Below are positions 18,381-53,243 of a stretch of DNA of 64,000 nucleotides, piece after piece. The notes beneath the pieces are model-generated. The model was not told the origin of the DNA and made no database searches. It was given only the letters and a program-made list of their open reading frames with translations. The stretch is from Corynebacterium humireducens NBRC 106098 = DSM 45392 (lineage in GTDB: Bacteria > Actinomycetota > Actinomycetes > Mycobacteriales > Mycobacteriaceae), in the NCBI RefSeq assembly GCF_000819445.1, contig NZ_CP005286.1:1984001-2048000 (forward strand), written 5' to 3'. Position 1 is the first letter of the stretch; every line of letters starts with the position of its first letter. The translations under genes and the position numbers were made by a program.

Positions 18381-18782
18381 ATGACCTTGACAACTCAGGC
18401 CACTGAGTGGCTCACCCGATTCGAGGAAGCAACGGCTGGTCCCTCGGCCGAGGCACTGAGAGACCTCTTCGAGCCGGAGTCGTTCTGGCGAGATCTCACC
18501 TCCATCAGCTGGAACATCACTACAGCGGAAGGAATCAACGAGATTGTGGCCATGGTGGAAGCAACCCACCCCCGCAGTCAGCTACGCAACATTGAACTCA
18601 GTGATGAGCCGGCCGACGAAGGGGACGGTGTCACCCGTATTTCCTTCACCTTCGACTCACTCGACTTCCATTGCAAGGGCATTGTCCGGCTCCGAAATGG
18701 TCGCGCGTGGACTGTCCTCACCTCTGCGCAGGAGCTGATCTCCTACCCCGAGCCAAGAGGACGTAGGGTCAAGTCCGCGGGA
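18381..18782 (+). pseudogene. Flavin-containing monooxygenase, 5' remnant
   Basis: 134 codons from the ATG at 18381 (AGGGAG upstream) that read through a SnoaL/NTF2-like N-terminal domain (SWNITTAEGINEIVAMVEAT; VRLRNGRAWTVLTSAQELIS) to YPEPRGRRV. In family members that segment is followed by the FAD-binding Rossmann fold. The frame then runs into the left end of an IS256-family element at 18783. The C-terminal part resumes after that element at 21569. By family length (about 600 aa) some 250 residues, including the FAD and NADPH glycine motifs, are missing, so the gene is dead even without the insertion. Confidence 0.8.
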
Positions 18783-18859
18783 GTGGTGTATCTGCCTTTC
18801 GATAAAACAAGCAGCATGACGGTGTCAGGGACCGGCACGAGCCCGATGGTGAGACTGGC

Positions 18860-19312
18860 TCATGCGACCTCCTGAGTGGCTTCGCCGGCATCGATGAGGT
18901 GGGCAGCCATCATCGCCTTCGTCTGCTCCAGGCTCGTCAGCGACATGTAGCGCTTCTGCTGGATCCAATCATCGTGCTGCTCCGCCAACACGGCACCCAC
19001 GAGGCGGACCACGGCCTCGCGGTTGGGGAAGATCCCGACGACGTCGGTGCGCCGGCGGATCTCCCGGTTGAGCCTTTCGGTCGGGTTGTTCGACCACACC
19101 TTCGTCCACACCGCCTTCGGGGCGTGGGTGAAAGCCAGCAGCTCGTCGAGGGACTCCTCGAGGTAGTCCGCGACATGCGGGAACTTCTGCTCACAGAAGC
19201 CCACCACCTCCCGTGCCTGATCCCACACAGCCTGGGCATCGGGTTGCTGGAAGATCGTCTGAAACATCGCCGACAACGTCGGCCACTGCGTCTTGGGCAC
19301 CAGCCCGGAGAG
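18860..19312 (-). pseudogene. IS256-family transposase, C-terminal part
   Basis: 150 codons starting LSGLVPKTQWPTLSAMFQ and containing NNPTERLNREIRRRTDVVGI, the region of the catalytic Glu of the DDE triad. The N-terminal part is at 20678-21463, and both parts are in the same frame. Joining them across the single AAC codon duplicated by the IS3 insertion gives a transposase of about 412 aa, so the disruption is purely insertional. Confidence 0.88.
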
Positions 19313-19378
19313 GTTGGGCCCGAACCCCGGAAAGTGGACACGGGGATTTCATCAAGATGCGATAGTCAGTGTAGCTAA

Positions 19379-20272
19379 TCAGGCGGCTTCAAAGGCATTC
19401 GGCGAGCGGTAGCCGCACCATGAGTGCAAACGTTTCGTGTTGTACCGGGTGCACCACCGAAACACATCCCGGCGGCACACCAGCTGACTTGGAAAAACAG
19501 GCTCATCCTGAAGGACTTCCCGCTTCAGTGACGCGTTGAACGACTCCGCCAACGAGTTATCCGCACTCGTCCCGATCGCTCCCATCGACTGGGTGACGCC
19601 GAACTGCTCACACAACCTCCGGTACTGCTCAGAGGTATAAACACTGCCGTGATCCGAGTGGAAAATCGCCCCGTCAAGACTACCTCGGGCCCCGTGGGCC
19701 ATCGTGAGGGCTTCTTCGACCAACTCGGTGCGCATGTGGTCGGCGATCGCGAAACCGGTCAACTGCCGCGAATAGCAATCAATAACGGTGGCCAGGTACA
19801 TATTCGACCCGTCCGCGATCGGCAGGTACGTGATATCGCCGACGTAGACCGTGTTCGGCTTGGCTGCGGTGAACCGACGTTTCAACAGGTCCGGGAACTT
19901 CGGAACCCGTTTCGCAGACACGGTGGTCTTCACGCGGCGTTTTTTCGTGTAGCCGAACAGACCCATCTGCCGCATCAGCCGGGCCGTGCGCTTGTGATTG
20001 ACCCGCTGCACAACAACGCCGCCGGCGGAGTTGCCGTCGCTGGAGTTGATAGTCGCAGTCACACGTTTCGCCCCGTAGCAGCCGTTCTCGGCGTTGAAGG
20101 TGGTCTTGATCTGCGCTCCCAGCACCGCGTCGGCGACGAGGCGTTGCTGGCGGGCAGGGGCAGCCGATTTCCAGGCGTAGTACGAGGACCGGTTGATCTT
20201 CAGAACCTCACATAACCGCTTGACCTCGTAGAAGTCTCGGTGGTCGTCAACAAATCGGAAGCGGTTCACCAA
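19379..20272 (-). CDS. IS3-family transposase OrfB (copy A1)
   Basis: 297 aa. An HTH_21-like region (NRSSYYAWKSAAPARQQRLV) precedes the rve integrase core. D is in YVGDITYLPIADGSNMYLAT, the second D is in IFHSDHGSVYTSEQYRRL, and E is in ADNSLAESFNASLKREVL, giving the DDE triad. The 5' end overlaps OrfA at TTGGTGAAC, so expression may need frameshifting to an OrfAB fusion or coupled restart at GTG. The catalytic residues are intact, so the element could be active. Confidence 0.9.
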   Translation of the reverse strand: MVNRFRFVDDHRDFYEVKRLCEVLKINRSSYYAWKSAAPARQQRLVADAVLGAQIKTTFNAENGCYGAKRVTATINSSDGNSAGGVVVQRVNHKRTARLMRQMGLFGYTKKRRVKTTVSAKRVPKFPDLLKRRFTAAKPNTVYVGDITYLPIADGSNMYLATVIDCYSRQLTGFAIADHMRTELVEEALTMAHGARGSLDGAIFHSDHGSVYTSEQYRRLCEQFGVTQSMGAIGTSADNSLAESFNASLKREVLQDEPVFPSQLVCRRDVFRWCTRYNTKRLHSWCGYRSPNAFEAA

Positions 20273-20607
20273 TTCGTCTCTTCCGCGAAATATTTAGCCG
20301 CCTTGCGCAGGATCTCTCGTTCCTCCCGGAGCTTGGCGTTTTCGCGTTCCAACACGCGGATGCGCTCGGTATCGGAGAGTCCTTCAGCCGGGGTGCGTGC
20401 GCTGTTGGCCGCGGCGACGGGGCTGGCGACTTTCTCGCCGTTGGCGTTGGTTTTGGTGCCGGTGCCGAAGGAGTCGAGCCAGGTGCGCAGGGAGTTGCGG
20501 TTGACTCCGAGATCGGAGGCGATCGCGTTGATCGTTGCTCCGGGAGTCGACTCGTACAACGCCACTGCGTCACGCTTGAACTGCTCGGTGTAGGTCTTGC
20601 GTGGCAT
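20266..20607 (-). CDS. IS3-family OrfA (copy A1)
   Basis: 113 aa from the ATG at 20607 (MPRKTYTEQFKRDAVALYES). It carries a helix-turn-helix (ATINAIASDLGVNRNSLRTW) and a C-terminal leucine-zipper-like coiled coil (ERIRVLERENAKLREEREIL). OrfA binds the element ends and regulates transposition. It ends within the OrfB start region. Confidence 0.9.
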   Translation of the reverse strand: MPRKTYTEQFKRDAVALYESTPGATINAIASDLGVNRNSLRTWLDSFGTGTKTNANGEKVASPVAAANSARTPAEGLSDTERIRVLERENAKLREEREILRKAAKYFAEETNW

Positions 20608-20677
20608 GGTGGAAAGGTACCTCACTTCCCCAGCGAAATGCTGGTTTCAGCGTGTCCACCATCAAGGGGTCAGGTCC

Positions 20678-21463
20678 GTTCTTAGCGAAGTGCGTGCGGC
20701 ACCGCTGCCAGGAGGCGTTGGGCAGCACCTCGCCGATGGCGTGCTGGATCCCCAGGTGCGCGTCGCTGGTGACCAGGTACACCTGGTCCAGGCCCCGGGC
20801 CTTGAGATCGCGGAAGAAACCGGTCCAGGAGGCCACCGACTCCGAGGTGGCGACCTGCATACCGAGTAGTTCCCGATAGCCTTCGGCATTGACGCCGGTG
20901 GCCAGCAGGACGGAGGTCTTGACCACCCGCCCGCCTTCACGGACCTTCATGGTCAACGCGTCGCAGGAAACATACAGATACGGGCCAGAATCCAACGGGC
21001 GGGTCCGGAAATCCTCCACCATCTGATCAAGATCTTTGGCCATCTCTGAGACCTGTGATTTCGAGAGATTGTTGATCCCCAAGCTGGCGACCAGGTCGTT
21101 CATCCTGCGGGTCGACACGCCTTTGAGGTAGCAGGTGGCGATCACGGTGGTCAGGGCCCGTTCGGCCCGGGTGCGTCGTTCCAGCAGCCAGTCCGGGAAG
21201 AAGGAACCGGTGCGTAGTTTCGGCACGGCGACGTCGATGGTGCCGACTCTGGTGTCGAGGTCTCGGTGGCGGTAGCCGTTGCGGACGTTGGTGCGGGACT
21301 CGGATGTGGTGGCGTAATCGGCGCCGCAGATCTGGTCGGCCTGGGTGGACAGGATCTGGTTGATGAAATTCTGCAGCATCTGTCTCATCAGGTCCGGGGA
21401 GGCTTGAGACAGTAGGTCGTCGAGGTAGGTGGTCGGGTCGATATGATGGGGGCCAGCGGCCAT
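20678..21463 (-). pseudogene. IS256-family transposase, N-terminal part
   Basis: 262 codons from the ATG at 21463 (MAAGPHHIDPTTYLDDLLSQ), running through YVSCDALTMKVREGG (first catalytic Asp) and VYLVTSDAHLGIQHAIGEVL (second Asp) to CRTHFAKN, where the IS3 element is inserted. The C-terminal part continues at 19312. An in-frame read-through into the IS3 end gives a tail GPDPLMVDTL that is not transposase sequence. Confidence 0.88.
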
Positions 21464-21568
21464 CGTGGGTTGTCCCTTTCGAGGAGATGTAGGAGTTGAT
21501 TCGAAAGGTACTGCGGTGGTCGCCCACATCTTCCATGGGGTCCTCACCGGCAGTTACAGATACACCAC

Positions 21569-22216
21569 GCTAACGGACGTCACCACGTAGACACCGCTGA
21601 CCTGCTCTTCGCATCGTGGCCTTACAGACTCCTACCCGATGTCCAGCGTCCAGTCTTCGACAAGATCCGGGAGGACGATCGCGAGTTCTACGACAGATTG
21701 GAGGAAGCCGGTTTCACGCTCGACTTCGGCGATGACAACTCCGGCCTCTTTCTCAAGTATCTGCGCCGCGGTTCTGGGTACTACATCGATGTCGGTGCCT
21801 CTGACCTCGTAGCAGAGGGGAAGATCCCGGTGCGTTCAGGAGTGAGCATCGACCATGTCACCGAAACGTCGGTGGTACTCACCGACGGCACAGAGCTTCC
21901 AGCCGACGTCATCGTCCTGGCCACCGGATATGGCTCCATGAACGGCTGGGCCGCCCAGCTCATCAGCCAGGATGTCGCCGACGAAGTGGGACGTTGCTGG
22001 GGCCTCGGTTCCGACACTACAAAGGACCCTGGTCCATGGGAGGGAGAACTGCGCAACATGTGGAAGCCGACCCAGGTTAAGGGACTGTGGTTCCACGGAG
22101 GAAACCTTCACCAGTCGCGACACTACTCCCGCTATTTGGCACTCCAGCTGAAGGCCCGCTATGAGGGAATGGACACACCCGTCTATAACCTCGCTCCGGT
22201 CCATCACACCAGCTAA
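21569..22216 (+). pseudogene. Flavin-containing monooxygenase, 3' remnant
   Basis: 215 codons in frame from the right end of the IS256 element. Family sequence is recognisable from ADLLFASWPYRLLP through GLFLKYLRRGSGYYIDVGAS, the ATG-containing motif VIVLATGYGSMNG, and LWFHGGNLHQSRHYSRYLAL at the C-terminus. It lacks the cofactor-binding half and has no start signal, so it is non-functional. It pairs with 18381-18782. The original enzyme would have been an FMO-like oxygenase with an NTF2-like N-terminal domain. Confidence 0.85.
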
Positions 22217-40884: not shown

Positions 40885-41333
40885 ATGACCGGACGAGCAC
40901 CTCGCCAGACCATCTCCATCGCCGAGGCGTCGGTGGGTATTTTTGTTGTTTTGAACTCCATTTATTCCTTTCAGCATTCTGGCGGGAAACTACCTGCACT
41001 TCTTGCCATTTCGGCTGTGACAATGTGCTGTCTCGTTTCAGCGATGAGATCGAAAGTTGCGATTATAGGCCTCGCACCCGCCTCTGTTTTCGCAATCTTC
41101 TCGATCAGCAACCCTATACCCGTTATTATTGCTGTCGCCTCCATCGTGGCGCTGCTCATATCCCGCGATATGCTGCCCTCCACACTTCCCACCATCGTTA
41201 GCGTTCCGATGGCAATGATCCTAAAACACCCGGAACTCGACGCCACGTCATCCGAGTTTCTCATTCTTACTTCATTGACCCTCGGCGCAGCTATCGTCAT
41301 GGGCGTCGTCATTCTGCGCGCAAACACTTTAAG
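40885..41333 (+). pseudogene. Sensor histidine kinase, N-terminal remnant
   Basis: About 149 codons from the ATG at 40885 encoding four or five membrane helices (ASVGIFVVLNSIYSFQHSGG; IIGLAPASVFAIFSISNPIP; LGAAIVMGVVILRANTL). The frame is then cut by the left end of an ISL3 element at 41334. The catalytic half continues at 48327. The segment is visibly AT-richer than flanking housekeeping genes. Rejoining the two parts does not give one frame and seems to lack the short linker before the H-box, so some bases were lost at the insertion point. Confidence 0.75.
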
Positions 41334-41461
41334 GGCTCTTCACGATTTGGAATGCGTAGCTGACCACGGGGTGGGGTTCGGGGTGGCACAACATGTAGAG
41401 TTCCTGGCCGGTACAAGATGAGAGTTGCGAAGCTTCCATCTGACCGAACCAGGACCCTACT

Positions 41462-41923
41462 GTGCAGCCTAGTGGCAACCTCGTCGCCGACACCATCTGC
41501 CGCACGGCAGAAATCGGCCTGACCATCACCGGAGCCGCTGACGCCGGCAACATCACCATCATCGACGCCACCCCGGTGGCCGTGGCCACCACCTGTCCCG
41601 AGTGCGGACACCCCGGGACGAAACGTGATCACGTGGTCCGGACTCTGGTCGACCTGCCGGTGGTGGGGTTCCCCACCCGCCTGCATGTGCGCGTCCCCAG
41701 ATTCCTGTGCACGATGGCGTCCTGTCCCCGCAAGATCTTCCAGGCTTCACTGGCCTGCGCGGATGACCGATCCAAGCTCACCCACCGCGTCACCCGCTGG
41801 GTCCTCCAGCGACTAGCGATTGACCGGATGAGCGTGGCTGCGACCGCCACAGCGCTGGGCGTCGGGTGGGAGCTGGTCAACCAGGTCGCACTGGATGCCT
41901 GCCGCCAGCTCGTCTACGACGAT
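41462..41923 (+). pseudogene. ISL3 transposase (element D), N-terminal part
   Basis: 154 codons from the GTG at 41462 (MQPSGNLVADTICRTAEIGL). It contains the zinc-ribbon TTCPECGHPGTKRDHVVRTL plus CTMASCPRKIF, then an HTH region, and ends LVYDD where the IS3 copy A2 is inserted. The rest is at 47462-48313, and the two parts join to a 437-aa ISL3 transposase. Confidence 0.9.
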
Positions 41924-41993
41924 GGACCTGACCCCTTGATGGTGGACACGCTGAAACCAGCATTTCGCTGGGGAAGTGAGGTACCTTTCCACC

Positions 41994-42118
41994 ATGCCAC
42001 GCAAGACCTACACCGAGCAGTTCAAGCGTGACGCAGTGGTGTTGTACGAGTCGACTCCCGGAGCCACGGTCAACGCGATCGCCTCCGATCTCGGAGTCAA
42101 CCGCAACTCCCTGCGCAC
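41994..42118 (+). pseudogene. IS3 OrfA of copy A2, 5' part
   Basis: The first 42 codons of OrfA (MPRKTYTEQFKRDAVVLYES; NAIASDLGVNRNSLR), cut by element B inside the CAC target. The 3' part resumes at 46292, and the rejoined OrfA is 113 aa. It differs from copies A1 and A3 at two residues here (AVVLYES for AVALYES, ATVNAI for ATINAI). Confidence 0.88.
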
Positions 42119-42168
42119 TGAACCGTCACGGGTTTCTTGCCGCCTTCCAATGAGGAAGGATCACCAGC

Positions 42169-42300
42169 ATGAAAAAGTCCTACGACCCCGAGTTCAAAGC
42201 CCGGGCCGTCCGGATGGTCCAGCAGCACCGCGAAGACTACCGGTCACTGACCGCCACCTGCACCGCCATCGGTAGCGAGCTCGGGGTATCCCGGGAAACC
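42169..42300 (+). pseudogene. IS3 OrfA of element B, 5' part
   Basis: 44 codons from the ATG at 42169 (MKKSYDPEFKARAVRMVQQH) through the helix-turn-helix start LGVSRET, then cut by ISL3 element C. It continues at 45129 with LRNWVRQAEVDAG. GAGGAAGGA precedes the start. The rejoined protein is 103 aa. Confidence 0.85.
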
Positions 42301-42313
42301 GGCTCTTCACGAT

Positions 42314-43441
42314 TTAGAGTGCGTTGATCTTCCCCTGCAGCTGCCCGGAGTGGATCAGGCACCTCAATATGTAGTGGTTGAGATTCCTGAACCCCAGGGC
42401 AATTCCCCGCAGGTGCTCGAGCCTGCCGTTGATGGCCTCGACCGGCCCGTTGGACGCACCGATATCGAAATAGGCGAGCACATCCTCACGCCGGCGCCAC
42501 AAGGTCCGTCCCAGTTGGGCGAGTTCCTCCAATCCGGCGGGCAGTCCCTTACGCAGGCTGTTGATCACCCTGCTCATCAGCTTTTTGCCTTCTGATTTCT
42601 GCGGATGCCCGTACGCCGCAATCATGTCCTGATAGAACAGCCACGTCACCTCGAGTGCCACGTAGTCATCATCAGTGGCCCACAACATGTCCAGACGCTG
42701 TTTCTGCCGCTGCGTCAGGTAGTTCGTCCTGGTCAACAGCGTTCGGCGGTACTTGTACAGCGGGTCATCTTTCCGTCCACGACGCCCGGTGGTCTCCCGT
42801 TGGAGTCGCTGCCGGCATCCGGTGAGCTTGTCAGCTGCCAGATGGACTACGTGAAAGGGATCCATGACCTTGGTCGCGTCCGGCAGGACCTGGTCCACAG
42901 CGCTGGCGTAACCGGTGAAACCATCCATCGTCACTACCTGCACCTGCTCCCGGAAACCGGGGTCGCGTTCCTGCAGCCACGTACGCAGCACTTCCGCGCT
43001 ACGTCCGGGTCGCAGGTCCAGCAGGCGGGCCGGACCACGCCCATCGACCAGCGGGGTGAGATCCACGAGGATCGTCACCAGATTGGACGGCTGACCTGGC
43101 TTTCGGGTGTGCTTCCAGACGTGCTCATCGACCCCGAGGATCCGGACGCCGTCCAGGTAGTGCGGGTCGTCATAGACGAGCTGGCGGCAGGCATCCAGTG
43201 CGACCTGGTTGACCAGCGCCCAACCCACACCAAGTGCCTTGGCGGTGGCGGACACACTCATCCGGTCAATCGCCAGGCGCTGCAAGATCCAGCGGGTCAC
43301 CCGGTGGGTGAGCTTGGCACCGTCATCAGCACAGCTGAGTGTGGCCTGGAAGATCTTCCTCGGGCAGGAGATAGCTGTGCACAGGAAGCGGGGGACGCGG
43401 ACATGCAGACGGGTGGGGAACCCCACCACCGGCAGGTCGAC
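42314..43441 (-). pseudogene. ISL3 transposase (element C), C-terminal part
   Basis: 375 codons beginning VDLPVVGFPTRLHVRVPRFL. The DDE region includes LGVDEHVWKHTRKPGQPSNL, VVTMDGFTGYASAVDQVLPD, PFHVVHLAADKLTGCRQRLQ and FDIGASNGPVEAINGRLEHL. The N-terminal 62 codons are at 44807-44992. The open frame extends through the IS3 end to about 43525, but that extra N-terminal tail is IS3 sequence. Confidence 0.9.
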
Positions 43442-43514
43442 GAGGGACCTGACCCCTTGATGGTGGACACGCTGAAACCAGCATTTCGCTGGGGAAGTGA
43501 GGTACCTTTCCACC

Positions 43515-43856
43515 ATGCCACGCAAGACCTACACCGAGCAGTTCAAGCGTGACGCAGTGGCGTTGTACGAGTCGACTCCCGGAGCAACGATCAACGCGAT
43601 CGCCTCCGATCTCGGAGTCAACCGCAACTCCCTGCGCACCTGGCTCGACTCCTTCGGCACCGGCACCAAAACCAACGCCAACGGCGAGAAAGTCGCCAGC
43701 CCCGTCGCCGCGGCCAACAGCGCACGCACCCCGGCTGAAGGACTCTCCGATACCGAGCGCATCCGCGTGTTGGAACGCGAAAACGCCAAGCTCCGGGAGG
43801 AACGAGAGATCCTGCGCAAGGCGGCTAAATATTTCGCGGAAGAGACGAATTGGTGA
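43515..43856 (+). CDS. IS3-family OrfA (copy A3)
   Basis: 113 aa, identical to OrfA of copy A1. It has a helix-turn-helix (ATINAIASDLGVNRNSLRTW) and coiled coil (RVLERENAKLREEREILRKA). The last codons overlap the OrfB start at TTGGTGAAC. Confidence 0.9.
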   Translation: MPRKTYTEQFKRDAVALYESTPGATINAIASDLGVNRNSLRTWLDSFGTGTKTNANGEKVASPVAAANSARTPAEGLSDTERIRVLERENAKLREEREILRKAAKYFAEETNW

Positions 43857-44743
43857 ACCGCTTCCGATTTGTTGACGACCACCGAGACTTCTACGAGGTC
43901 AAGCGGTTATGTGAGGTTCTGAAGATCAACCGGTCCTCGTACTACGCCTGGAAATCGGCTGCCCCTGCCCGCCAGCAACGCCTCGTCGCCGACGCGGTGC
44001 TGGGAGCGCAGATCAAGACCACCTTCAACGCCGAGAACGGCTGCTACGGGGCGAAACGTGTGACTGCGACTATCAACTCCAGCGACGGCAACTCCGCCGG
44101 CGGCGTTGTTGTGCAGCGGGTCAATCACAAGCGCACGGCCCGGCTGATGCGGCAGATGGGTCTGTTCGGCTACACGAAAAAACGCCGCGTGAAGACCACC
44201 GTGTCTGCGAAACGGGTTCCGAAGTTCCCGGACCTGTTGAAACGTCGGTTCACCGCAGCCAAGCCGAACACGGTCTACGTCGGCGATATCACGTACCTGC
44301 CGATCGCGGACGGGTCGAATATGTACCTGGCCACCGTTATTGATTGCTATTCGCGGCAGTTGACCGGTTTCGCGATCGCCGACCACATGCGCACCGAACT
44401 GGTCGAAGAAGCCCTCACGATGGCCCACGGGGCCCGAGGTAGTCTTGACGGGGCGATTTTCCACTCGGATCACGGCAGTGTTTATACCTCTGAGCAGTAC
44501 CGGAGGTTGTGTGAGCAGTTCGGCGTCACCCAGTCGATGGGAGCGATCGGGACGAGTGCGGATAACTCGTTGGCGGAGTCGTTCAACGCGTCACTGAAGC
44601 GGGAAGTCCTTCAGGATGAGCCTGTTTTTCCAAGTCAGCTGGTGTGCCGCCGGGATGTGTTTCGGTGGTGCACCCGGTACAACACGAAACGTTTGCACTC
44701 ATGGTGCGGCTACCGCTCGCCGAACGCCTTCGAAGCCGCCTGA
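43850..44743 (+). CDS. IS3-family transposase OrfB (copy A3)
   Basis: 297 aa with an intact rve integrase core: D in VGDITYLPIADGSN, D in FHSDHGSVYTSEQ, E in ADNSLAESFNAS. Identical at protein level to copy A1 although the DNA differs at a few silent positions (for example GAACTG against GAGTTG within TELVEEA). The copy A2 protein has ARKVRGDLNG where this one has AHGARGSLDG. Confidence 0.9.
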   Translation: MVNRFRFVDDHRDFYEVKRLCEVLKINRSSYYAWKSAAPARQQRLVADAVLGAQIKTTFNAENGCYGAKRVTATINSSDGNSAGGVVVQRVNHKRTARLMRQMGLFGYTKKRRVKTTVSAKRVPKFPDLLKRRFTAAKPNTVYVGDITYLPIADGSNMYLATVIDCYSRQLTGFAIADHMRTELVEEALTMAHGARGSLDGAIFHSDHGSVYTSEQYRRLCEQFGVTQSMGAIGTSADNSLAESFNASLKREVLQDEPVFPSQLVCRRDVFRWCTRYNTKRLHSWCGYRSPNAFEAA

Positions 44744-44806
44744 TTAGCTACACTGACTATCGCATCTTGATGAAATCCCCGTGTCCACTTTCCGGGGTTC
44801 GGGCCC

Positions 44807-44992
44807 GAGGCGGCGGAGGATGTGATCCCGCAACTTCCCGGCATGCCCGCAGTCCGGGCAGAGGCCGGTGACGACCACCGGTGTGGCGTCGATGATGGTG
44901 ATGGCACCGGCGTCAGCGGCACCGGTGATCGTCAAGCCGATCTCGGCGGTGCGGCAGATGGTGTCGGCGACGAGATTGCCAGTAGGCTGCAC
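44807..44992 (-). pseudogene. ISL3 transposase (element C), N-terminal part
   Basis: 62 codons starting MQPTGNLVADTICRTAEIGL and including the first zinc-ribbon pair GLCPDCGHAGKLRDHILRRL, then cut by IS3 copy A3. It rejoins in frame with 42314-43441 to give 437 aa, the same length as the element D transposase. Confidence 0.88.
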
Positions 44993-45128
44993 AGTAGGGT
45001 CCTGGTTCGGTTAGATGAAAGCGTCGTAACTCTCATCTTGTACCGGCCAGGGCCCCTATATGTTGTGCCACCCCGAGCCCCACCTCGTGGTCAGCTACGC
45101 ACTCTGAATCGTGAAGAGCCGGGAAACC

Positions 45129-45308
45129 CTGCGCAACTGGGTCCGGCAGGCCGAGGTCGACGCTGGCACCGCCCCCGGTGTCACCACCGAGGAGTACGAG
45201 GAAATGGCACGCCTACGCAAGGAGAACAAACGTCTGCGGGAAGCCAACGAGATTTTGAAGAAGGCCACGGTTTTCTTCGCCGGGGAGCTCGACCCCCGAA
45301 ACCACTGA
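45129..45308 (+). pseudogene. IS3 OrfA of element B, 3' part
   Basis: 59 codons from LRNWVRQAEVDAGTAPGVTT through the coiled coil (RLRKENKRLREANEILKKAT) to FFAGELDPRNH. It follows directly after the right GGGAAACC duplication of element C. GGTTTTC at 45269-45275 lies where a -1 shift would enter the OrfB frame, so it is a candidate slippery site. Confidence 0.85.
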
Positions 45309-46261
45309 TCGCCGACTTCATCGACCAGATGAGAGACGAAGGCTTCGCCGTCGAGTCGATCTGCCGTGTCCTGCGTGAGCAGGGCGTGCAGGTCGCGGCA
45401 AGAACCTACCGCTATTGGAAGAAAGCGGCACCGGCCACACGGATCGTCAGCGACGCGCAGATCCTGAACGCGCTCCACGATCTGAAAGGCACACCGGAAT
45501 CCTTGTACGGGCGGCGCAAGATGGTCGCGTACCTGCGCCGGCAAGGGCATGCGGTGGCGCACTGCACCGTCGACCGATTGATGCGCCTGGCCGGGGTCAA
45601 CGGTATCTCCAGGCGTCGGATGAAACCGCGGACCACGGTTCCCGGCCCCGGGGACCGTGCCCCGGACCTGCTGAACCGGGACTTCACCGCTGAAGCGCCC
45701 AACCGGGTGTGGATCGCGGATTTCACCTATGTGCACACTGCGTCTGGCTGGGTATACATCGCTTTTATCGTCGACGTCTACTCGCAGCGCATCGTAGGCT
45801 GGCACGCCCAGACCTCCCGTGGAGTGGAATTGGTGCGTATCCCGTTGCGTCTGGCGCTGTGGGAGCGCGACCGCACCCAGCATCCGGTCGTGCCCGGGGA
45901 GCTGACCCATCATTCGGATGCGGGAAGCCAATACACGGCGGTGAAGTTCACCGAGAATCTGGCGCTGCAGGGCATCACTCCGTCAATCGGCAGTGTCGGC
46001 GACGCCTACGACAACGCCCTCATGGAGTCGATTAACGGGCTCTACAAGACTGAATGCATCGGCTCTCGGATCTTCACCCCACAGCGCTTGGAGTCGATCG
46101 TGGACGTGGAGCTGGCGACGATGTCGTGGGTGCAGTGGTACAACACCCGTCGACTGCACTCCACCCTCGGGATGGTCCCACCCGCGGAGTATGAGGAAGC
46201 CTACTGGGCCGGGCACGCTAGAATTACCGAGTCACCTGAGAGGGTGGCTCAGCCAATCTAA
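45270..46261 (+). CDS. IS3-family transposase OrfB of element B
   Basis: About 320 aa if entered by a -1 frameshift near 45270; the recognisable protein begins LIADFIDQMRDEGFAVESIC at about 45308. It has an HTH_21-like region followed by an rve core: D in NRVWIADFTYVHTASGWVYI, D in LTHHSDAGSQYTAVKF, E in YDNALMESINGLYKTE, all intact. The open frame extends upstream to 44822 through foreign ISL3 sequence, which is not part of the protein. This gene is complete, but its OrfA partner is split by element C. Confidence 0.8.
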
Positions 46262-46291
46262 CGGCGGCAACAAAGCCGTAGCGGTTCACAC

Positions 46292-46508
46292 CTGGCTCGA
46301 CTCCTTCGGCACCGGCACCAAAACCAATGCCAACGGCGAGAAAGTCGCCAGCCCCGTCGCCGCCGCCAACAGCGCACGCACCCCGGCTGAAGGACTCTCC
46401 GATACCGAGCGCATCCGCGTGTTGGAACGCGAAAACGCCAAGCTCCGGGAGGAACGAGAGATCCTGCGCAAGGCGGCTAAATATTTCGCGGAAGAGACGA
46501 ATTGGTGA
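46292..46508 (+). pseudogene. IS3 OrfA of copy A2, 3' part
   Basis: 71 codons from WLDSFGTGTKTNANGEKVAS to the stop at 46508, directly after the CAC duplication of element B. It carries the coiled coil intact. Together with 41994-42118 it reconstitutes a 113-aa OrfA. Confidence 0.87.
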
Positions 46509-47395
46509 ACCGCTTCCGATTTGTTGACGACCACCGAGACTTCTACGAGGTCAAGCGGTTATGTGAGGTTCTGAAGATCAACCGGTCCTCGTACTACGCC
46601 TGGAAATCGGCTGCCCCTGCCCGCCAGCAACGCCTCGTCGCCGACGCGGTGCTGGGAGCGCAGATCAAGACCACCTTCAACGCCGAGAACGGCTGCTACG
46701 GGGCGAAACGTGTGACTGCGACTATCAACTCCAGCGACGGCAACTCCGCCGGCGGCGTTGTTGTGCAGCGGGTCAATCACAAGCGCACGGCCCGGCTGAT
46801 GCGGCAGATGGGTCTGTTCGGCTACACGAAAAAACGCCGCGTGAAGACCACCGTGTCTGCGAAACGGGTTCCGAAGTTCCCGGACCTGTTGAAACGTCGG
46901 TTCACCGCAGCCAAGCCGAACACGGTCTACGTCGGCGATATCACGTACCTGCCGATCGCGGACGGGTCGAATATGTACCTGGCCACCGTTATTGATTGCT
47001 ATTCGCGGCAGTTGACCGGTTTCGCGATCGCCGACCACATGCGCACCGAACTGGTCGAAGAAGCCCTGACGATGGCCCGGAAGGTACGAGGAGACCTGAA
47101 TGGGGCGATTTTCCACTCGGATCACGGCAGTGTTTATACCTCTGAGCAGTACCGGAGGTTGTGTGAGCAGTTCGGCGTCACCCAGTCGATGGGAGCGATC
47201 GGGACGAGTGCGGATAACTCGTTGGCGGAGTCGTTCAACGCGTCACTGAAGCGGGAAGTCCTTCAGGATGAGCCTGTTTTTCCAAGTCAGCTGGTGTGCC
47301 GCCGGGATGTGTTTCGGTGGTGCACCCGGTACAACACGAAACGTTTGCACTCATGGTGCGGCTACCGCTCGCCGAACGCCTTCGAAGCCGCCTGA
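46502..47395 (+). CDS. IS3-family transposase OrfB (copy A2)
   Basis: 297 aa with an intact DDE core. It differs from copies A1 and A3 at a cluster of residues just before the second Asp (ALTMARKVRGDLNGAIFHSD here). The cognate OrfA is split by 4.2 kb of nested insertions, so an OrfAB fusion cannot be made and this copy should not transpose alone, although its ends could be used in trans. Confidence 0.88.
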   Translation: MVNRFRFVDDHRDFYEVKRLCEVLKINRSSYYAWKSAAPARQQRLVADAVLGAQIKTTFNAENGCYGAKRVTATINSSDGNSAGGVVVQRVNHKRTARLMRQMGLFGYTKKRRVKTTVSAKRVPKFPDLLKRRFTAAKPNTVYVGDITYLPIADGSNMYLATVIDCYSRQLTGFAIADHMRTELVEEALTMARKVRGDLNGAIFHSDHGSVYTSEQYRRLCEQFGVTQSMGAIGTSADNSLAESFNASLKREVLQDEPVFPSQLVCRRDVFRWCTRYNTKRLHSWCGYRSPNAFEAA

Positions 47396-47461
47396 TTAGC
47401 TACACTGACTATCGCATCTTGATGAAATCCCCGTGTCCACTTTCCGGGGTTCGGGCCCGAT

Positions 47462-48313
47462 GCTTCCCACCTCGATGGAGTCCGGATCCTCGGTGTGGAC
47501 GAACATGTCTGGAAGCACACCCGAAAGCCAGGCCAGCCGTCCAACCTGGTGACGATCCTGGTCGACCTCACCCCGCTGGTCGACGGACGTGGGCCGGCCC
47601 GACTACTGGATATCCGCCCAGGCCGCAGCGCAGACGTGCTGCGCACGTGGCTGCAGGAACGCGACCCTGGCTTCCGGGAGCAGGTGCAGGTCGTGACCAT
47701 GGACGGGTTCACCGGCTACGCCAGCGCTGTCGACCAGGTCCTCCCGGGCGCCACCAAGGTCATGGATCCCTTTCACGTGGTCCATCTGGCAGCTGACAAG
47801 CTCACCGGATGCCGGCAACGGCTCCAACGAGAGACCACCGGACGCCGGGGCCGCAAGGACGATCCGCTGTACAAGCACCGTCGCACGCTACTGACCAGGA
47901 CGGACTACCTCACCGAGCGGCAGAAACAGCGACTGGACATGCTGTGGGCCACCGATGACGACTACGTGGCCCTGGAGGTGACGTGGATGTTCTATCAGGA
48001 CGTGATCCAGGCGTACGGGCATCCGAAGAAGTCGGAGGGCAAGAAGTTGATGGACCGGATCATCAACACCCTGCGCAAAGGCTTGCCGAAAGGTCTGGAG
48101 GAGCTGGCTCAACTCGGGAGAACCCTGTGGCGTCGGCGGGAAGATGTCCTGGCGTACTTCGATATCGGGGCGTCCAACGGTCCGGTCGAGGCGATCAACG
48201 GACGGCTTGAGCATCTACGCGGGATTGCTCTGGGGTTCAGGAATCTCAACCACTACATCTTGCGGTCACTGATCCACTCCGGCCAGATACACAACCGGAT
48301 CAACGCACTCTAA
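47462..48313 (+). pseudogene. ISL3 transposase (element D), C-terminal part
   Basis: 283 codons from ASHLDGVRILGVDEHVWKHT to HSGQIHNRINAL, containing the ISL3 DDE core (VVTMDGFTGYASAVDQVLPG; FDIGASNGPVEAINGRLEHL). Continues from 41462-41923. Compared with element C it has scattered substitutions, for example ASHLDG against PHYLDG at the junction. Confidence 0.9.
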
Positions 48314-48326
48314 ATCGTGAAGAGCC

Positions 48327-48927
48327 ACTTTCCTCCGAACTCCACGACAATGTCACCAGCAAACTGTCTTCCGCTGTAATACTGCTAGAAAGCATGCAGT
48401 CATCCCTTCGACAACCGAGTGCGGAAACTTGCGCTCAACTCCCCCTTGCCAAGTCACTGATACGTTCTGCGGCAGAGGGGGCTCGGAATATCAATGTCGA
48501 GATAGCGAAGGATCCCTCCATGCTTCCGCCGAATGGGCCAGTGGATGTCCACACGCTCATCTGGGACCAGATTCGAACGCTGCGGACCATGGGAATCGAG
48601 GTAATTTTCTCGACCACAGGCCCTCGCACCGTGACCCCTCACTCCTTTAACGCAGCAATGCGAGAAGCTTTCGTAAACATCCACAAATATGCAGACCCTC
48701 AACAACCTGTTACGGTCAGCCTCGACACTTCCTGTGGTGTCCACCTCGAGGTCGAAAACTCGGAGCGTTCGATCTCACGTGATCGAGTCATATCCTCACA
48801 ACTCGGAATCGCCCAACACGCCACCAAACTTCATCTGGAGGGCGGAAGAATGAAGGTCTATAATCACGGCAAAACCTGGAGAGTATCTCTCGAACATCCC
48901 CGATCAGAACGAACTGAGACCAAATGA
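48327..48927 (+). pseudogene. Sensor histidine kinase, catalytic remnant
   Basis: About 199 codons in frame from 48328. It begins with the dimerisation H-box LSSELHDNVTSKLSSAVILL (HisKA_3 type) and continues to a HATPase region with the N-box AAMREAFVNIHKYADPQQPV. The membrane-sensing half is at 40885-41333. It has no start signal of its own at the IS junction; the first in-frame ATG, at 48394, lies downstream of the H-box, so phosphotransfer function is lost. The stop overlaps the response regulator ATG. Confidence 0.8.
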
Positions 48928-49547
48928 TACGGATGTTGATTGCGGATGACGACCCAATTGTGCGTCACGCACTACCAGCCTATTTCGAGAGCATAAGCGA
49001 TATTTCCGTAGCAGACACAGCCCCCGACGGCCATTTGGCTTTGGAGTCCCTTAAGAACAACGACATAAATCTAATTCTGAGTGATCTAAGAATGCCGAGC
49101 ATGGACGGGTTGACTCTCCTGAAACGGGTTCGAGAGTTATCAGAGAACATTTGCTTTGTTGCGATGACGTCGTACGACTCCGACACCGCAATGATTGAGG
49201 TTTTGAGAGCGGGCGCTTCGGGCTATATCCTCAAAGACGCGTCCCCTGAAAAAATGGTTACCGCAGTACGAGACGCCTATTCAGGCGGAACAGCTCTTTC
49301 GCCTTCCTGCGTGAGTCGGCTCGTACAACTCTCCATGGCCGGACGTAAGCAAGTTTCGATGGAGTCTTTGTCGCCTACGGATTACTCCATTCTTTCCCTG
49401 CTCTCATCGGGAATGTCAAATCGACAGATAGCCTCGGAACTTCATTACGCTGAGTCAACAATCAAGAATCGAGTTAGCCATCTAATAAAGAAGTTTCAGG
49501 TGGATTCTCGCATCAAGTTAGCGCTGTTGTTCCACGGACACGTGTAG
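48924..49547 (+). CDS. NarL/LuxR-family response regulator
   Basis: 207 aa. The receiver domain has acidic residues D8-D10, the phosphorylation site Asp54 (NLILSDLRMPSMDGLTLL) and Lys in SGYILKDAS. The C-terminal LuxR-type HTH reads LSPTDYSILSLLSSGMSNRQ, then IASELHYAESTIKNRVSHLI. Its ATG overlaps the kinase stop (ATGA). The cognate kinase is inactivated by the IS nest, so this is probably an orphan regulator. The gene is AT-rich compared with the flanking lepA block, which suggests acquisition by transfer. Confidence 0.9.
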   Translation: MIRMLIADDDPIVRHALPAYFESISDISVADTAPDGHLALESLKNNDINLILSDLRMPSMDGLTLLKRVRELSENICFVAMTSYDSDTAMIEVLRAGASGYILKDASPEKMVTAVRDAYSGGTALSPSCVSRLVQLSMAGRKQVSMESLSPTDYSILSLLSSGMSNRQIASELHYAESTIKNRVSHLIKKFQVDSRIKLALLFHGHV

Positions 49548-51566: not shown

Positions 51567-52573
51567 GAGGGTGTTACGAAAGTCGTTTCAGCCAGTAGCG
51601 GATATTCGCCAACTGCACCGTGGCCTCGAAATGCACCGCTAACTTGTCGAAACGCGTGGCACACCCACGATGCTGCTTGATCCGGTTGATACCCCGCTCC
51701 ACGGCATTACGCCGCTGGTAAGCCACGGCATCGAAGGCAGGGGGTCGGCCACCGGCCGACCCCCTGCGCCGACGGTTGGCGACCTGGTCCTTCGGCTGGG
51801 AGATCGTCGCCTTGATCCCCCGCGCCCGCAACCACGCCCGGTTCGCCCGTGAGGAATACGCCTTGTCCGCCAACACCCGCTCGGGTCGTTTCCGCGGCCG
51901 ACCACGCGTGGCGGACGGCACCCGGATTTTCTCCAGTACCCGCACCATCTGTGGACCATCACCGGCTTGACCTGGGGTGATCGCAAAGGACAGCACCCCG
52001 CAGTCAGCGTCAATGGCCACATGGATCTTGGTCGACCACCCGCCCCGCGAGCGGCCGAACCCATGATGATCCGGCTCCCCCGGGTGGCGGAGGGGGCTGT
52101 CTTTCCGTGCACCCGCGGCGTGGATATGTCCACGGGTGGTTGTGGAATCCACGCTGACCTCCCAGGAGAGTTTTCCTTTCTCCTGGGCGTGGGTGAGCAG
52201 CCGGGTGTGCACGTTCTCCCATACTCCGTTGGCCCGCAGCCGGGCGAACAGATCGTGGACCCGCCACCAGGGGCCGTAGCGCTCATGGACATCGCGCCAC
52301 GGGCAGCCGGTGCGGATGCGAAAGAAGATGCCGTTGACCAGGGACCGTAGGTCCCAGGTGCGGGGGCGTCCCCGCCGTGACGGGGCCGGTAGCAGTGGGA
52401 CAAGCAGGTCCCATTCAGCGTCGGTGAGGTCATGGCGTGCTGAGGGCGGTACAGTAGGCAACGAGGGTTTCCTTGCGAGCGTTGATGATTCGACACCAAC
52501 AGCGTGCGCGGGGAGACCCTCGTTGCTGTTTATGACACGCCGGTCTCACTCACCGGATTTTCGTAACACGCTC
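51567..52573 (-). mobile_element. IS5-family element (IS427-like)
   Basis: 1007 bp with terminal repeats GAGGGTGTTACGAAA (51567) and GAGCGTGTTACGAAA (reverse strand from 52573). It is flanked by TA on both sides (part of CTAG), which fits the 2-bp TA duplication of the IS427 group. It is inserted between lepA and the PemK-like gene and probably separates lepA from its native promoter region. Confidence 0.88.
51574..52461 (-). CDS. IS5-family transposase
   Basis: 295 aa in a single open frame from a TTG at 52461 with AAGGAA upstream. N-terminal LTDAEWDLLVPLLPAPSRRG is the family opening. DDE residues lie in VSVDSTTTRGHIHAAGARKD (first Asp), ERVLADKAYSSRANRAWLRA (second Asp) and RRNAVERGINRIKQHRG (Glu). 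Many IS427-group transposases need a frameshift between two frames; this one does not. The element looks intact and potentially mobile. Confidence 0.9.
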   Translation of the reverse strand: MPTVPPSARHDLTDAEWDLLVPLLPAPSRRGRPRTWDLRSLVNGIFFRIRTGCPWRDVHERYGPWWRVHDLFARLRANGVWENVHTRLLTHAQEKGKLSWEVSVDSTTTRGHIHAAGARKDSPLRHPGEPDHHGFGRSRGGWSTKIHVAIDADCGVLSFAITPGQAGDGPQMVRVLEKIRVPSATRGRPRKRPERVLADKAYSSRANRAWLRARGIKATISQPKDQVANRRRRGSAGGRPPAFDAVAYQRRNAVERGINRIKQHRGCATRFDKLAVHFEATVQLANIRYWLKRLS

Positions 52574-52646: not shown

Positions 52647-53243
52647 ATGGGCACCAACAGCAACGGCTCACGGGGAGTCCACCGGCCCGCGCTGCCCCAG
52701 TCCGACCGCCCCTCCCTGCTCGACCGCGTCCGCTCGGTGCTGATCGGACCGACCGCCTCCCCCCTCGACTCCGGCCTGGCCCGCATCAACGAACGCCTCG
52801 GCCTCAACACCGGACTCAAGCCCGAGGCCGTCCGTGCCGCCGCCGCGAACATCCGCGTCGAGGCCACCGAACGGATGAGCCGCAACATCTATTACGCCCC
52901 CGACATGGACGGCCAGGCAGAACCCGGCGAGGTCGTGTGGATCTGGGCCCCCTCCGACGGCCCCGACCTGCCGCCGCGGGAACGCGCCATGCTCGTCATC
53001 GGCCGCGACCGCCACACCATCCTCGGCCTGCTCATCTCCCCCAACCCGAAACACGCGGGCGCGGAGACGTGGCTCGACATCGGGGCCGGCGAGTGGGACG
53101 CCTCCGGCCGGCAGTGCTGGATCCGCCTCGACCGGGTTCTCGAGGTCTCCGAACAGGGCGTCCGCCGCCAGGGGGCGCTGTTCCCGCAGCGCCGATTCGA
53201 GCGCATCGCCAACCGCCTGCGCAACCACTACCACTGGGGATAG
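52647..53243 (+). CDS. PemK/MazF-like family protein
   Basis: 198 aa. After a variable N-terminal ~90 residues, the PemK-like beta barrel is recognisable: [40 protein letters not shown], and a C-terminal [16 protein letters not shown]. PemK/MazF toxins are mRNA interferases, but this gene is longer than a classical toxin (about 110 aa), and no antitoxin-like frame precedes it. A AAGGAG sequence lies before the ATG. It sits between lepA and rpsT as in other corynebacteria, so a housekeeping role is as likely as a toxin. Confidence 0.65.

Follow-up and report, generated by a model that had tools for sequence, protein, structure and literature searches.

Five insertion sequences nested within a probable histidine kinase gene of Corynebacterium humireducens

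Prokaryotic genomes often carry intercalated clusters of insertion sequences (ISs), which can be resolved with ISsaga (PMC3129680). The locus described here is a deep example of this already published type of structure: as in the ISsaga clusters, one IS is interrupted by further ISs, each of which has an uninterrupted relative, and the nesting is five deep, a depth not being given for those clusters in the parts of that source drawn on here (PMC3129680). IS clusters have also been reported in Frankia, in a source whose relevant part does not mention nesting. No five-deep IS nest was among the matches listed in the literature searched, a body of text with subscription journals mostly outside it. 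Leifsonia xyli is, like the organism studied here, an actinobacterium. Of its 26 IS1237 copies, 4 are located within another IS, a case that differs from the nest in that the nesting described is single-step and involves the IS5 family (PMC2516522). With regard to target choice, ISCg1 of Corynebacterium glutamicum, a member of the ISL3 family, has an 8-bp target with a favoured A+T-rich centre, TTTA being the commonest central tetramer (PMC8715038). An A+T-rich centre is likewise found in the duplication of one nested element, ISL3-C, and in four other duplications of this genome, a likeness of family and target type. Finally, recombination and adjacent deletions are frequent causes of absent target duplications (PMC11708052). 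The outermost element of the nest, ISL3-D, resembles such ISs in lacking a duplication and in the apparent loss of host DNA next to it.

Below, "the window" is the whole stretch of 64,000 nucleotides analysed (genome positions 1984001-2048000); nest coordinates are window positions, and coordinates of six or seven digits are genome positions. The source genome is a single contig of 2,681,312 bases with a computed completeness of 100. The reading that we consider very probable for the locus as a whole combines an irregular outermost element, four ordered insertions, tolerated hits and a genome-wide tendency of ISs to lie within ISs.

Layout of the nest and its uninterrupted relatives

The outermost element, ISL3-D (41334-48326, + strand, 1455 bp without its insert), interrupts the kinase gene and carries PF01610 in its right part. 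It contains IS3-A2 (41924-47458, +, 1362 bp without its insert), flanked by the duplication GAT at 41921-41923 and 47459-47461. Within IS3-A2 lies IS3-B (42119-46288, +, 1342 bp without its insert), with CAC at 42116-42118 and 46289-46291, and IS3-B is in turn interrupted by ISL3-C (42301-45120, - strand, 1455 bp without its insert; PF01610), with GGGAAACC at 42293-42300 and 45121-45128. The innermost element and the only uninterrupted one of the nest, IS3-A3 (43445-44806, +, 1362 bp), sits in ISL3-C between copies of GAG at 43442-43444 and 44807-44809. Element lengths were obtained by subtracting from each span the insert and one copy of the duplication.

Family membership is in keeping with this layout. 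ISL3 elements are expected to duplicate 8 bp of target and IS3 elements 3 bp, and these are the widths found at ISL3-C, where GGGAAACC flanks both ends, and at A2 (GAT), A3 (GAG) and B (CAC). ISL3-D and ISL3-C share the ISL3 terminal inverted repeats GGCTCTTC...GAAGAGCC and both have PF01610 in their pieces, while an uninterrupted D-type copy elsewhere scores 351.8 bits with NF033550 (cut-off 180). The IS3-A3 transposase, with PF00665 and PF13276, is spread over two frames (43497-43856 and 43850-44743), the second reaching 299.8 bits with NF033516 (cut-off 160) and the short first one 48.6 bits, below the cut-off. In IS3-B, rve and HTH_21 domains are found in a frame (44822-46261) that also crosses ISL3-C DNA, and IS3-A2 was assigned to IS3 because its DNA is about 98.5% identical to that of the other A copies.

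The layers were examined without splicing, by comparing their separate pieces to uninterrupted relatives, evidence that weighs more than the duplications; the relatives came from the same genome for the D, A and C types and from five other genomes of the genus for B. Unbroken full-length D-type matches lie at 691826-693280 (also followed by eye across the GAT site), 694032-695486, 2469311-2470765 and 2579186-2580640, and the left and right parts of ISL3-D are 99.5-99.7% and 99.9-100% identical to them, respectively. Full A copies are found in the window at 19316-20677 (A1) and in the genome at 1371610-1372971 and 1617352-1618713; the two parts of A2 correspond to element positions 1-195 and 193-1362, with a three-base overlap. 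For the C type, the copy at 829845-831299, bordered by GCTTATCG at both ends, continues unbroken across the GAG site. The two pieces of IS3-B overlap by 8-9 bp on the B relatives at the target of ISL3-C, i.e., by the width of the ISL3-C duplication or one base more. There is no second full IS3-B in the genome, where the best other match is 71% identical over about 164 bp. With a B query at 1e-50, 13 of 242 genus genomes match, the source genome being counted in. A further relative, on a C. callunae plasmid (match at 19334-20351, coordinates shared with a match in a genome of the genus), has itself been interrupted, by an insert with a longest frame resembling an IS30 transposase; the best plasmid matches of the IS3-A query are also from Corynebacterium.

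The five-deep nest appears to be real. The order D > A2 > B > C > A3 and the inner duplications proposed in the first-pass annotation hold when both sides of each junction are read and the pieces are mapped onto other copies, the five lengths follow by subtraction, and the duplications and the uninterrupted relatives give good support to a series of four insertions, each into a resident IS. Its claim that every transposase reconnects in frame was assessed by way of these relatives alone. The nest can be read as a log of insertion order that fixes the relative sequence of four steps, each layer being backed by an uninterrupted relative.

Allele comparisons bear on the integrity of individual layers. 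When A2 is aligned with four A copies (A1, A3, 1371610 and 1617352), letters found in A2 only occur left of B, at element positions 117, 142 and 146, and right of B, at 232, 268 and most of 972-1005. That such private alleles flank B on either side indicates that the two halves of A2 belong together. Against A1, A2 has 3 differences on the left of B and 20 on the right, and 14 of those 20 fall in 972-1005; the A2 letters at 954, 955, 1281 and 1287 are common to A3, and those at 1002 and 1003 to copy 1617352. ISL3-C, for its part, is identical to the 829845 copy over the 315 bp right of A3, and differs from it elsewhere at 43 sites, at all of which the 829845 copy has the D-type letter. These sites span 42446-42743, and 14 C-type sites lie among them (42618-42724). 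From this mosaic, the 829845 copy is best read as having undergone patchy gene conversion by a D-type copy, in which case the comparison would reveal IS copies exchanging sequence.

The outermost element and the broken kinase gene

ISL3-D is flanked by ACTTTAAG on the left and ACTTTCCT on the right, which have five letters in common and form no 8-bp duplication. A D-type element does duplicate its target at other loci (L051, with CCTTTCCC, and two split copies, 545144-548427 and 849099-851872), so that it is this insertion that is irregular and not the element; three further D-type copies are also without duplication (L052, L053 and L054). ISL3-D had been described as the first insertion, and its presence at the base of the nest stands, but a simple insertion does not, given the absent target duplication and the host DNA that is apparently missing.

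The gene that it interrupts can be followed on both sides. The 5' part (40885-41333, +, within an open frame at 40885-41421) is the probable membrane sensor part of a histidine kinase: it is hydrophobic, ends 2 residues past its last hydrophobic window and gave no Pfam match. The 3' part (48327-48927, +) holds an H-box and a weak ATPase region; it starts at the H-box, with HisKA_3 aligned from profile position 5 (E 1.4e-4, 22.8 bits, just under the curated cut-off of 24) and HATPase_c at E 0.067, and it resembles ORFs of the genus that lie next to related response regulators, with a best E of 1.6e-11. Immediately downstream, an uninterrupted response regulator (48924-49547, +; Response_reg and GerE) is the partner of the broken kinase. 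Ten relatives in the genus, kinase-like ORFs chosen by an H-box pattern next to a response regulator, have 16-28 residues between the last hydrophobic window and the H-box, and hence about 14-26 residues are apparently missing at ISL3-D. This suggests a kinase gene lacking some 42-78 bp, a figure derived from relatives to which the right part is only 21-32% identical and which the left part barely matches (E 0.11 at best). An intact kinase locus was sought and none was found, which is why this number remains an estimate: when the right part was used as a protein query, no candidate out of 244 reached E<=0.001, a scan of genome contigs gave 14 far relatives, and across 201 genus genomes, its own included, the best non-self response regulators among the matches listed are 45-47% identical. 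At this locus a probable kinase gene is disrupted and the response regulator gene next to it is not; the kinase is probably inactive while the regulator remains.

As to how the site arose, ISL3-D is most likely better explained by ISL3 copies having recombined, or by a deletion next to the element, than by a clean insertion. Comparing its flanks with those of other ISL3 copies yielded no pair that would identify a recombination partner. The centres of the ISL3-D flanks, TTTA on the left and TTTC on the right, would suit two recombined ISL3 insertions, if weakly. Of note, elsewhere in the genome, two inverted ISL3 copies (691826-695486; L053 and L052) each lack a duplication of their own, and the right flank of L053 and the left flank of L052 share CGTATGGG, the sole such match in the flank comparison, which points to recombination.

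The history that we propose is as follows. ISL3-D came to sit in the probable histidine kinase gene and, because its ends lack matching duplications, the site would have been altered during or after its arrival, most likely through recombination with another ISL3 copy or an adjacent deletion. Ordinary transposition then brought A2 into D, B into A2, C into B and A3 into C, an order that follows from the nesting and the duplications. These later hits were probably tolerated, as they would have damaged only DNA that was already broken.

Nesting across the genome and the alternatives

The first-pass annotation had further proposed that the locus behaves as a sink in which insertions are neutral. 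As a property of this particular locus, this was not borne out, since IS-in-IS structures exist at several other loci of the same genome. Among 38 counted copies (5 IS3-A, 9 IS3-A', 13 ISL3, 6 IS256-type, 1 IS3-B and 4 of another rve element), 8 are strictly inside another IS, the four of the nest included, and 14 when abutting cases are added; two ISL3 fragments, a distant ISL3 relative (67%), lesser rve and Transposase_mut matches and other IS families fall outside this count. Strict cases beyond the nest are an IS3-A' in an ISL3 (849099-851872), IS3-A1 (19316-20677) in an IS256-type element (window 18767-21584), with the duplication AAC in the element's orientation, an IS256-type element that splits an IS3-A' (917228-920002) and is bordered by an 8-bp duplication, and an rve element (2445382-2447906) lodged in another copy of the same element and flanked on either side by GTTT. 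Six more copies lie directly against another IS with no clean duplication (545144-548427 holds two of them, and the others are at 112902-115588, 1915861-1916610, 806387-808070 and 371007-373615), and some of them may be deletion joins and not insertions. The genus-wide DNA searches, which scored 2 candidates per genome, are not usable as a census of nests: in genome G000 they gave 1-3 matches, versus 20 ISL3 matches in a separate search.

A true local sink, where insertions are neutral or favoured and ISs are collected far above the genome's own rate, would be suggested by the five elements at one site, and its standing depends on how unusual such a depth is. When 38 insertions are simulated with all elements equally long, in a toy model that ignores differences of family, length and site, a depth of at least 5 has a chance of 0.0239 with the strict cases (8/38) and 0.0027 when the nest is left out (4/34), a value that would favour something special; once abutting cases count, these chances rise to 0.169 (14/38) and 0.0778 (10/34), respectively. 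With values ranging from 0.003 to 0.17, the depth is unusual, yet can be reached by the genome-wide habit, and we regard a local sink as rather unlikely. Much of the nest can be put down to a genome-wide tendency or to survivorship; a depth of five is still somewhat unusual. Since the genome has many IS-in-IS structures, the nest would be the deep tail of a genome-wide pattern, for which a purpose-built landing site is unnecessary.

Another explanation is that IS3-A-type elements favour other ISs, of the ISL3 and IS256 types, and that the nest reflects targeting in part and not just tolerance. In this genome, 8 of 14 IS3-A/A' copies are in or abut ISL3 or IS256-type elements, versus 2 of 13 ISL3 copies in ISs (Fisher 0.046), but the strict cases alone give 4/14 versus 2/13 (0.65), a row in which the inner ISL3 at 546516-547556 is counted as nested though partly deleted. 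In other genomes, flanks match transposase frames at E<=1e-9 for 7 of 26 IS3-A and none of 29 ISL3 relatives (0.003), but this cut-off was picked after the data were seen, and at E<=1e-3 the counts are 7/26 and 4/29 (0.32). These figures come from 300-bp flanks, with a scorable end in 26 of 29 fetched IS3-A and all 29 ISL3 relatives, at loci that are the best-scoring ones, one per genome, and not a random draw; the flank library is small and home-made from the longest open frames, part of them apparently antisense, and some matches are neighbours rather than hosts. Counted among the 7 IS3-A relatives is a 93% identical one in another species (G155:C1:587399-589168), which abuts an ISL3 fragment. 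Against a shared site, the positions hit within ISL3 differ each time (55, 90, 311-315, 587-591, 695-700 and 1281), and three of the six (55, 90 and 1281) are deletion borders. No common motif was found among the 3-bp duplications of IS3-A/A' (AAC, AGC, AGC, TGG, GCA, CAT, CAC, GAT and GAG), and three IS3-A' copies (L028, L030 and L031) have no duplication. IS3-A-type elements may land in ISs more often than ISL3 elements do, on evidence that hangs on cut-offs. Targeting as a contributor to this nest appears doubtful to us, and slightly more doubtful still is the broader proposition that Corynebacterium IS3-A-type elements prefer ISs, above all ISL3, and that deep nests are built through targeting as well; if true, such targeting would offer a testable reason for IS pile-up.

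Lastly, a wrong joining of identical repeats during assembly, conceivable with repeats of 1.3-1.5 kb in many copies, is highly improbable in view of the one-contig genome with its completeness of 100, the right-length duplication at every inner junction, the A2 alleles flanking B on both sides and the lack of a second full genomic copy of B with which to be misjoined.

Other features of the window

Searches for tRNAs and Rfam families across the 64-kb window found nothing. Beyond the nest, a 118-bp repeat at window 52430-52547 is 99% identical to a stretch at genome position 804657, which also matches position 2266480 at 99%; this repeat is possibly an IS end. Close by, a frame at window 52647-53243 has a PemK/MazF-like domain (E 1.2e-7).
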